Below the pieces are notes generated by a model. It had not been told where the DNA came from. It made no database searches and was given only the letters and a program-made list of their open reading frames with translations. The position numbers and the translations under genes were made by a program. Positions 20,245-23,405 of a DNA stretch of 59,955 bases are shown here, one piece after another; position 1 is the stretch's first letter; each line of letters starts with the position of its first letter. Origin of the DNA: Pseudomonadota bacterium (GTDB taxonomy: Bacteria; Pseudomonadota; Alphaproteobacteria; Puniceispirillales; UBA1172); contig JAQCJL010000003.1 in NCBI GenBank assembly GCA_027593125.1, positions 1-59,955 on the forward strand, read 5' to 3'.

Positions 20245-21420
20245 ATGCCGGTCCATAACGCAATCGCAGATCAAGCTGAGGATATGTGCCAATGGCGTCA
20301 TTATTTGCACAGCCACCCAGAATTGGCGTTTCAGGAACATAAAACCGCTGATTTTATCGCTGAAAAGCTCGAATCCTTTGGGGTTGAGGTGCATCGCGGT
20401 CTGGCAGGAACAGGGGTTGTTGGTGTTATTCGTGGACGCGGGGACAGCAAAAAGATGATTGGCTTAAGGGCAGATATTGACGCCCTCCCCATCCATGAGG
20501 AAAACACCTTTGACCATAAGTCTCAACATTCTGGTGTTATGCATGCCTGTGGTCATGATGGGCATACCGCAATGTTGTTAGGGGCGGCTAGGCATCTCGC
20601 AGAAAATCGAAATTTTGACGGTGATGTCGTTGTGATTTTTCAACCAGCCGAAGAGGATGGCGGCGGTGGCAAAGTGATGTTGGATGATGGGTTGCTGACG
20701 CAGTTTCCTGTTGATACCATCTGGGGTATGCATAACTGGCCTGGGCTTGATGTTGGGCAAGTGATGATCCATCGCGGCGCTTCAATGGCGGCGGCGGATA
20801 GTTTTGATATTAAACTCACGGGGCGTGGTGGTCATGCTGCGATGCCACATGAAACTGCCGATCCTATTTATGCAGCAGCGGCCTTGATTCAAGCTTTGCA
20901 ATCGGTGGTTTCGCGGCGTTTGAATCCCTTTGATGCGGCAGTAGTTTCCATCACCCAATGTCATAGTGGTTTTACACATAATGTCATTCCAGATGAGGCG
21001 TTTATCCAAGGCACAGCTCGTTATTTCAACCCAGATCTAGGCAAGAAAATCCGTATTGATATGGAACAAATTATCAATCATGTGGCGTCTGCTCATGGCT
21101 GTTCGGCGCAATTTGACTGGATAGATGGTTATCCGCCAACGATTAATGATGCGGCGGCGGCGGAACGCGCGGCTTTGGCGGCGGCGGATGTTCTTGGGTC
21201 GGGGTCTGTGGTGATGGACCCACCACCGTCCATGGGGGCAGAGGATTTTTCATATATGCTAGATGCCCGACCGGGGGCCTATATCTGGCTTGGGGCAGGG
21301 CATCCTGGTGATGGCGCGATGCTTCATAATGCCCACTTTGATTTTAACGATGCGCTGTTACCCCTTGGCGCCAGTTACTGGGTATCATTGGTGGAACGCG
21401 AATTAGGAACAGGCGTTTAG
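20245..21420 (+). CDS. M20 family amidohydrolase (HipO/AbgB-like)
   Basis: This 391-residue metallopeptidase of the M20D group hydrolyses N-acyl or N-benzoyl amino acids and related amides. [16 protein letters not shown] lies at the N terminus. Metal ligands are in [29 protein letters not shown] (Cys102, His104) and [11 protein letters not shown] (Glu136-Glu137); GAEDFSYML supplies the C-terminal ligand region. The dimerisation domain is in the middle ([14 protein letters not shown]). AAGGG lies 6-7 bases before the ATG. Its substrate cannot be read; divergence from the sox operon could link it to amine use. The stop overlaps the umuC stop by 4 bases (TTAG). Confidence 0.88.
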
Positions 21421-22733
21421 CGCACTTTGACCAGATCGTTCCATCGGGTTGTATAAGACGGTGAGCGAAATTGCTGACGCATTTGCCATGATGGCTTGGC
21501 CGGGGCGTTGATGTTACGGCTTGGCATGACGCCTTCGCTGGCGTGAAAGAGCGTGCCGCGCCCCATCGCTGCGTTGACTTGATCCAGCATCGCCATTCGC
21601 CGACGGCTGGCGGCATTTTGGGCATTGTGGGATTTGGGGCTGTCCGGCAGATCAAGTCGCCATAGGCTTTTTTGTTCCCGGCCGTCACTCACCAGATCAG
21701 TCAGCATAACCCCAGCCTTGTGATAGCGAAAACCAGGGCGGTAAAGTTGCTGGATAGCCTTGGTGGCGGCGGCGATAAGGGTGCTGGTATCGGCAATGGG
21801 TTCATCAAACCGCATCAAGGCGGCGTTGCTATATTGGGGGTCTTGTTGGCGAAACCGATTGGTACGGATAAAAACATAAAGCCCTGCCGCTAGGCTTCGC
21901 TGTTTGCGAAGCTTTTCTGCGGCGCGGGCGGTATAGCTGGCGGCGGCTTCTTCTAGGCTGGCGCGGTCACTAATCAGGCGACCAAAACTGCGTGATGACA
22001 TAATGTTCTGTTTTGCCTGTACGGTTTCAATATCAAGGCAAGAGCGTCCATTTAATTCATGCACGATGCGTTCACCTACTACTGATAGCGCCTTGCGGAT
22101 TTGCCGTGGGTCAGCCTGCTGTAAGTCTAGCGCCGTGGTAATCCCTATCTCGCGTAAGCGTTGCCCCCAGCGTTTCGATATCCCCCAGATATCCTCAACC
22201 GCAATATCCCCCAGCACACGCGGCATCAAAACGGGATCAGTCATCATATAAACGCCATCACTGGCATATTTCTTTGCGATACGATTAGCCAGTTTAGCTA
22301 GCGTTTTCGTTGATGCTAGCCCCACTGAAACAGGAATGCCTGTCCATTGCCGGATCGCTTGCCGCATCTGGCGCATCTGTTCCGGGAGAAGAGCAGCATC
22401 ACATCCGCTAAACCCAAGAAATGCCTCATCAATGGAATAAATTTCTACATCTGGCGTGAACTGGCTTAAGGATTCCATGACCCGGCCTGACATATCCCCA
22501 TAAAGCGGATAATTCGATGAAAACACCTGCACCCTATGCTTTCGCATCATGGCGGTATATTCATGCACTGGGGCCCCCATGGGAATGCCTAGGGATTTTG
22601 CCTCATCTGATCGGGCAATGACACAGCCATCATTGTTAGACAGCACGACCACAGGCCGCCCCACCAGCGACGGATCAAAGACACGTTCACAAGAAACATA
22701 AAAATTATTGCAATCTACCAGCGCAAATAACAT
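21417..22733 (-). CDS. umuC: Y-family DNA polymerase V subunit UmuC
   Basis: This 438-residue Y-family polymerase carries out error-prone bypass of DNA lesions. [19 protein letters not shown] holds the first catalytic Asp. [15 protein letters not shown] follows, and YSIDEAFL holds the second acidic pair. [24 protein letters not shown] and a helix-hairpin-helix-like [11 protein letters not shown] complete the core. Length fits UmuC (about 420-440). It begins 2 bases after the umuD stop with no Shine-Dalgarno of its own, so translation is probably coupled. Its 3' end overlaps the convergent amidohydrolase gene by 4 bases. Confidence 0.95.
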
Positions 22734-22735
22734 GG

Positions 22736-23305
22736 CTAAACGCTATGGATGACATTGGTCACAACCCCCCAAATCACCATATTATTTTCATCGGTGATGG
22801 GAATCGGATCGTAACGGTCATTTTCAGGCATGAGCATAGTTTGACCAGATTTATGGTGTAAGCGTTTGACGGTAAGTTGACCATCAATCGCGGCGATAAC
22901 AATTTTGCCATGGCGGGCCTCAAGGCTACGATCCACTACCAAAATATCATCTTCGTGGATGCCAGCCTTGATCATGCTGTCACCACTTACCCGAACAAAA
23001 AATGTTGCCGCCGGATGTTTGATCAGATGATCGTTGAGATCAAGGCTGCCTTCAAGGTGGTCATCTGCTGGTGAGGGAAACCCTGCCGCCACGGCACAAC
23101 TAAATATTGGCAAGGCCTGCCTGCCGCCTGTGGCAACATATTCCATTACCTCGTCAATCATGCTAACCGGCAAACGCACAGGCTTTGTGGCTTCGCCATA
23201 GCGCCCTTGACCTGTTGGTCGTCCTGCCCCGGGCCTGGCGCCGCCACGCCCTTTTTTAGGGATTGAGGTGAGGGATGATCCCTTTGATGCTGATGATGTT
23301 GTCAT
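22736..23305 (-). CDS. umuD: UmuD-type autoproteolytic protein with N-terminal extension
   Basis: This 189-residue S24 peptidase-like protein has a C-terminal part matching UmuD. A cleavage pair Ala74-Gly75 ([13 protein letters not shown]), the nucleophile Ser110 in SGDSM and Lys147 in LTVKRL keep the spacing known for UmuD (35 and 37 residues). E. coli UmuD is about 50 residues shorter. The extra N terminus ([21 protein letters not shown], then [17 protein letters not shown]) is basic and resembles a ribbon-helix-helix DNA-binding segment, as in self-regulating UmuD-like proteins. A palindrome over its own promoter fits that idea. It is followed by umuC. Confidence 0.88.
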
Positions 23306-23329
23306 GATATTACCTGACTGATAAAGCTC

Positions 23330-23353
23330 ATATTCTATATAATATTAGAATAT
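23330..23353. promoter_or_regulatory. 24-bp operator-like palindrome over the umuDC -10
   Basis: ATATTCTA-N8-TAGAATAT is a perfect inverted repeat covering the -10. A second overlapping pair, GAATA-N8-TATTC (23348-23365), covers the -35 side, so half-sites recur with the same 8-base spacing. It is neither the GTTC-N7-GTTC type expected for alphaproteobacterial LexA nor the enterobacterial CTGT-N8-ACAG box. Confidence 0.55.
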
Positions 23354-23367
23354 TGTACTTTATTCAA
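23339..23367 (-). promoter_or_regulatory. umuDC promoter
   Basis: On the minus strand TTGAAT (plus 23362-23367), a 17-base spacer and TATTAT (plus 23339-23344) form a good sigma-70 promoter about 34 bases before umuD. Confidence 0.55.
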
Positions 23368-23405
23368 ATGTCAAGTAGGATGATCGCATCAAAACAAGCA
23401 GATCA

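Follow-up and report, generated by a model that had tools for sequence, protein, structure and literature searches.

A umuDC operon very probably repressed by its own UmuD, with a predicted operator found at module-bearing umuD genes of several phyla

The window, i.e., the whole stretch of 59,955 nucleotides analysed here, belongs to a genome of 1.99 Mb in 175 contigs and carries on its reverse strand the genes umuD and umuC, with 2 bases between the umuD stop and the umuC start (Table 1). The order of this genome includes the family f3, and because some UmuD N-termini of f3 are identical to those in records named SAR116 (L043, L103), the genome is called SAR116-related. The S24 core of UmuD covers residues 66-182 and has Ala74-Gly75, Ser110 and Lys147, as the original prediction had read them from the sequence. 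The about 50 extra N-terminal residues that it had noticed are exactly 50 if cleavage of the E. coli UmuD falls behind residue 24, as stated in the available part of PMC5342242. Two S24 genes were found in the source genome: this umuD, which encodes the single UmuD, and lexA, recognised at C108 by its LexA DNA-binding domain (E 9.8e-15).

Table 1. Genes, protein elements and predicted promoter features of the umuDC locus (positions in the window)
Feature	Position	Strand	Basis
umuC, 438 aa, frame intact	21417-22733	-	IMS E 2.5e-37, IMS_C, DUF4113
umuD, UmuD with N-terminal DNA-binding-type module, 189 aa, frame intact	22736-23305	-	Peptidase_S24 E 2.5e-33; NF007621 E 2.1e-51 over residues 73-187
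Ala74-Gly75, predicted self-cleavage bond	23081-23086	-	invariant across 44 aligned sequences
N-terminal module, residues 20-58	23132-23248	-	38-sequence alignment; homology to Acinetobacter N-terminus
24-bp palindrome of the original prediction, ATATTCTA-N8-TAGAATAT	23330-23353		left arm equals right arm of operator; right arm hardly conserved
Predicted UmuD operator, TTGAATAAAGTACAATATTCTA	23346-23367	-	top matrix match of the window, 19.6 bits; lines up in 11/11 family promoters
Likely -10, TATTCT, within right arm of operator	23347-23352	-	consensus only
Likely -35, TTGACA	23369-23374	-	consensus only; TTGA/TTGC block at constant distance in 11/11 family promoters

The umuD promoters of the window's family (f1) have a common layout: a TTGA/TTGC block lies 16 bp from TATTCT-like hexamers in all eleven. 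The likely operator of umuDC, predicted from sequence comparison, is TTGAATAAAGTACAATATTCTA, in which the arms TTGAATA and TATTCTA flank a GTAC core and 8 of 11 pairs are symmetric; the window site thus reads TTGA-N5-GTAC-N5-TCTA. It occupies the promoter spacer and overlaps the -10, therefore some right-arm positions could owe their conservation to the -10 alone. The overlapping palindrome GAATA-N8-TATTC, secondary in the original prediction, is exact at 23348-23365 and in 7/11 family umuD promoters, and the longer site around it can be aligned in all eleven, exact or degenerate. This palindrome, and not the 24-mer, appears to be the meaningful site. A further pair, TTGAAT-N17-TATTAT, was set aside as promoter, since it was seen in the window only.

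The presence of the N-terminal module in UmuD and of the operator in front of the gene is linked across phyla and mutually exclusive with LexA boxes. A matrix was trained on 43 of 44 promoters labelled non-alphaproteobacterial (one contained an N) and comprised 38 sites; its skeleton seed was chosen after viewing all data, and the labels were taken from the records, in which L101, L108, L118 and L131 are named only Proteobacteria. With this matrix the window operator ranked first in the 60 kb, 19.6 bits versus 10.9 bits for the next site. The threshold was set at the 99th percentile of 300 random pieces of the window, and 10/11 family promoters exceeded it. The one below, L012, and its repeat L074 (genome G004) have an in-frame TAA in the umuD core and, of all family sites scored, the weakest operator; the copy may be decaying, or the assembly may be in error. 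Held-out promoters came from newly fetched Alphaproteobacteria (68 of 69; L203, with 18 upstream bases, was dropped; L193 and L078, at the same contig place, are probably one genome). A site above threshold was present in 23/25 promoters with module versus 4/43 without (L212, L213, L226, L228; Fisher 5e-12), counting as without the module L212, L214, L225 and L226, whose degenerate modules were missed by the module expression. In the same 68 promoters a consensus fixed beforehand on the earlier promoters reached p < 0.02 in 16/25 with module versus 1/43 without, and exact LexA boxes occurred in 0/25 and 15/43, respectively. On those earlier promoters this consensus gave p < 0.02 in 43/67 versus 0/43, but there it scored the promoters from which it had been drawn by eye, among them the repeats L074-L076 of L012, L010 and L013; therefore the fixed-consensus and matrix tests are fairer. 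In a pooled set of 181 promoters, which took in the training promoters and for which the module was defined somewhat more broadly, the site was found in 81/93 with module versus 3/88 without, the LexA box in 0/93 versus 36/88, and operator and LexA box together in none. The 12/93 module-bearing genes lacking a scored site include L027, a umuD of the window's order below the matrix threshold, and two Acinetobacter genes with a narrower spacing outside the matrix. A tree-based pair test pointed in the same direction but was too small to reach significance (6 supported pairs, average 3.6 in the same and 0.0 in the opposite direction, median p 0.125).

Two strict operator patterns were searched over 27 and 21 genome handles (48; three handles belong to both sets and two are probably the same genome). 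Matches were obtained in 10/27 and 16/21 genomes, 27 sites in all, and the reversed patterns used as controls matched in none of the genomes. Twenty-six sites adjoin umuD. As the patterns were built from known umuD sites, they match umuD by construction, and the information lies in the absence of other matches. In the own genome the window operator was the only strict-pattern match. The 10/10 matching genomes of the first set yielded no LexA DNA-binding domain, a soft absence since the genomes are incomplete. Two looser patterns (TTGA-N5-GTNC-N5-TCNA, and TGAATA-N8-TATTCTA allowing one mismatch) matched additional places in the 12 family genomes about as often as their controls did. These matches were taken as chance, as was a second exact TGAATA-N8-TATTCTA in the own genome (C101) that has no GTAC core. 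The exact form of this pattern was missing from G011, a genome without umuD; it was also missing from the umuD-bearing genomes G002-G005, therefore the result for G011 proves little. The last of the 27 strict-pattern sites, L299 in genome G566, is an exact operator before a umuC-like frame (recognised by eye) in a 2.9-kb locus with no umuD core. Elsewhere in G566 a module-bearing umuD (L291) has a second site, and there is a third umuD (L149); this suggests control of the umuC-like gene in trans. Another alphaproteobacterium, G369, had five UmuD matches, with and without module.

The N-terminus of the window UmuD aligned with that of an Acinetobacter UmuD (L154) with a local score of 66; the best of 2000 shuffles reached 45 (0/2000 as good). 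The L154 gene begins MPKKKEFEHGGARENAGRKAQFNEPTKVIRVPESQVNFIKNWL and was taken to be UmuDAb on the basis of its annotation (umuD_1, peptidase S24), the small divergent gene at the locus and the site. The module, RGGxRxGAGRPxG...GExTKxxRxPxS, was found among the best 80 of at least 575 confirmed UmuD relatives in named genomes. Module-bearing proteins among the matches listed were from Legionella, Opitutia, Actinomarina, SUP05/Thioglobus, Methylococcaceae, Methylophilaceae, PS1, OCS116 and others (names as in the records), and upstream of many module-bearing umuD genes stood the palindrome TTGAATA-n-TGTACA-n-TATTCAA or its version with a GTnAC core. A profile search yielded no PDB relative of the module (best E 0.71), and the window module had no Pfam match; five Pfam families each matched one of the 38 aligned members, weakly. 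RptR came into question as a relative but was discarded, as far as the available part of the source goes, and GARPGAGRP was considered as a possible AT-hook. An AlphaFold2 model from 44 sequences had a mean pLDDT of 80.3, dominated by the UmuD core of the monomer. Confidence was low before residue 40; mean pLDDT was 89 for the block 41-50 and 84 for 51-60. The only helix of the model within residues 1-60 is 47-58; the stretch 40-46 before it is confident but received no secondary-structure assignment. A three-helix winged helix-turn-helix of the LexA type is not in the model (residues 1-39 being of low confidence), so that the model would call into question the LexA-like helix-turn-helix proposed for the UmuDAb N-terminus. 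Compared with ribbon-helix-helix proteins, to which the original prediction had likened the N-terminus, the monomer has the helix 47-58, no strand and no second helix; the model would be compatible with a strand that, like that of ribbon proteins, pairs only in the dimer. Residues 1-39 may become ordered on DNA.

UmuDAb of Acinetobacter is a proven self-cleaving repressor. It resembles the window UmuD (A. baumannii, A. baylyi) in the UmuD core with the Ala-Gly, Ser, Lys set, in the homologous N-terminal module, and in a TTGA-armed operator with a GTnAC-type core over the promoter. The UmuDAb box is given as TTGA(N4)GTWAC(N4)TCAA, and gel shifts in the available part of the same paper indicate binding of UmuDAb to this box, which is related to the window site (PMC11332147). 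In L154 the sequence TTGAAAATGTAACTTTTTCAA is readable as this box, and L155-L157 contain versions with GTnAC. The window promoter does not contain TTGA(N4)GTWAC(N4)TCAA exactly; in its site 5 bases separate each arm from the core, one more per side, and the core is the 4-base GTAC. Further differences are a LexA in the window's genome versus none in Acinetobacter, an intact umuC and a sole UmuD, and one site versus several targets in Acinetobacter; UmuDAb reportedly did not complement E. coli umuD. A search for DdrR, with a query taken as DdrR by its position and with no positive control, yielded nothing in the 11 genomes or records covered. The available part of PMC11332147 uses the heading 'unique to Acinetobacter' for operator features, and a self-repressing UmuD outside this genus was not found in the literature searched, which included PMC8565304, PMC4807011, PMC11332147, PMC7273328, PMC3978071 and PMC13148647 and few subscription papers. 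The operator had been predicted to be distinct to this UmuD. That part was not supported: umuD genes with the module share the site across several phyla, and it is similar to the UmuDAb box; therefore it is rather a cross-phylum relative of that box, here beside a lexA gene. The E. coli UmuD, which is LexA-controlled, shares the cleavable S24 core and the operon with umuC but lacks the N-terminal module; module-less relatives often have a LexA box (36/88). FddR of Francisella and the non-canonical LexA of Bacteroidetes are likewise damage-gene regulators of the S24 kind that are distinct from LexA and have palindromic sites, in the available parts of their descriptions; they differ in being phage-repressor-like and not polymerase subunits, and in their motifs (GTG-N11-CAC; GGA-N5-TCC, CTAA-N5-TTAG). 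A DNA-binding domain was not found in the Bacteroidetes UmuD, as reported in the available part of PMC8565304. In two Acinetobacter loci (L155, L156), umuDC operons whose UmuD lacks the module have TTGA-N4-GTTAC-N4-TCAA, as expected if UmuDAb controls those operons in trans.

We consider it very probable, from the sequence comparisons, that the umuDC operon of the window is an autonomous DNA-damage switch, in which UmuD represses its own operon via TTGAATAAAGTACAATATTCTA, separate from LexA. The protein has the marks of the self-cleaving repressor of its own operon that had been predicted, namely a cleavage core and a UmuDAb-like module. A dimer of full-length UmuD would bind the operator via the N-terminal module and cover spacer and -10; as judged from homology and linkage, the operon would stay low as long as full-length UmuD is bound. 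Upon damage, RecA filaments would trigger cleavage at Ala74-Gly75, in keeping with the conserved core and the work on UmuDAb and E. coli UmuD. Cleavage would remove the module, free the promoter and at the same time produce UmuD', the subunit of polymerase V. LexA of the same genome would not control the umuDC promoter, as inferred from the absence of its box. The switch would work like UmuDAb of Acinetobacter, the differences being that the umuDC operon is intact, that LexA is encoded as well, and that the core is flanked by one extra base per side. Self-repression gains support from published mutations of UmuDAb, because they map to the module: in A. baylyi, E24K and K40P/R41P relieve repression (available part of PMC4807011); in the alignment, Glu38 of the window UmuD is the counterpart of L154 residue 24, and residue 40 of L154 falls in the helix part.

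The original prediction had placed the operator in the 24-mer ATATTCTA-N8-TAGAATAT, which is exact in the window, with perfect 8-bp arms, and has its sole exact copy in the 1.99-Mb genome there. As a bare palindrome it is unremarkable in AT-rich DNA (z 1.5, p 0.08; 60 dinucleotide shuffles); it is the best palindrome of the promoter, so that a bare-palindrome score fails to single out the operator TTGAATAAAGTACAATATTCTA. This score reached p < 0.05 in 21/67 module promoters versus 3/42 others (L040 skipped for an N). The right arm TAGAATAT matches 8/8 in the window only and 1-5/8 at the same offset in all ten other family promoters. The conservation in close relatives on which the original prediction had made its claim depend was not observed: no such arm was seen in nine of these, and in the tenth, the closest relative L005, a similar arm TTGAATAT (7/8) is shifted and lies one base nearer with a spacer of 7. 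That UmuD uses the 24-mer as its main operator is thus extremely unlikely, as it also lacks the GTAC core common to most sites. The right arm at 23330-23337 does resemble an extra operator arm with no core, and it is possibly a weak second half-site in the species pair formed by the window and L005.

A repression of umuDC by LexA through a diverged site appears very improbable to us, despite the lexA gene in the genome and the situation in the sister family f3 of the same order, where umuDC is, by its promoters, LexA-controlled: 18/18 umuD genes of f3, many of them close copies, have no module and an exact LexA repeat near the start, e.g., GAACAAAACATGAAC. In a tree of UmuD cores f1 and f3 fall into a shared clade (SH-aLRT 97), therefore one lineage contains module and palindrome on one side and LexA box with no module on the other. 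LexA, recognised by its N-terminus, is present in 12/12 genomes of f1, and one-mismatch repeats of the GAAC-N7-GAAC type precede lexA in 12/12, more than one such repeat in 11/12. By contrast, the exact repeat (GTTC-N7-GTTC or GAAC-N7-GAAC) is missing in 11/11 umuD promoters of f1 including the window, in agreement with the original prediction that no alphaproteobacterial LexA direct repeat is present. Repeats with one mismatch occur about 300 bases before the module codons in L011 and 71 bases before them, inside the frame, in L013. The operator before umuD in the ten genomes with no LexA DNA-binding domain found, incomplete as they are, also argues against LexA; among 65 module-bearing genomes, many of them incomplete, the domain was found in 20, the own included. 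The count of GAAC-N7-GAAC in the own genome was 40 versus 94 for the reversed pattern, and therefore uninformative on the LexA regulon. Finally, a third regulator might bind the palindrome while the UmuD module does other work, e.g., keeps the polymerase on the DNA; a basic module could indeed bind DNA with no sequence preference. Such a regulator would need to be present across several phyla, track the UmuD module and control little else, and UmuDAb with its homologous module binds a related box in the gel shifts mentioned above. We regard this explanation as very improbable.

With some reserve, we favour the broader view that self-repression by UmuD is a portable SOS module of several phyla, in which the compact DNA-binding domain and the operator TTGA-N5-GT(n)AC-N5-TCAA are gained and lost together and replace LexA control. 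UmuDAb, so far treated as a feature of Acinetobacter linked to its missing LexA, would be one member and not an invention of the genus, and a polymerase could have its own RecA-driven trigger even beside LexA. If true, the self-repressing UmuD is a general damage switch for error-prone synthesis, whether LexA is present or absent, and many genes with the plain annotation umuD encode regulators. The families f1 and f3 would then represent a natural swap between neighbours, self-controlled versus LexA-controlled. The module would be a small domain of DNA-binding type without a described fold, and the site linked to it a testable operator.

Two minor observations concern LexA and the module. In 11/12 lexA promoters of the window's family (L016-L026) LexA half-sites follow at 11-bp steps, e.g., GTAC-N7-GAAC-N7-GATC, which suggests that these promoters hold more than one LexA dimer. 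A phage family of 94 residues with unassigned function, phrog_21736, matched residues 5-89 of L154 and 8-90 of L100 (E 1.7e-17 and 1.8e-8), i.e., the N-terminal module of UmuDAb and the linker without the protease core, and is possibly a free-standing competitor repressor.
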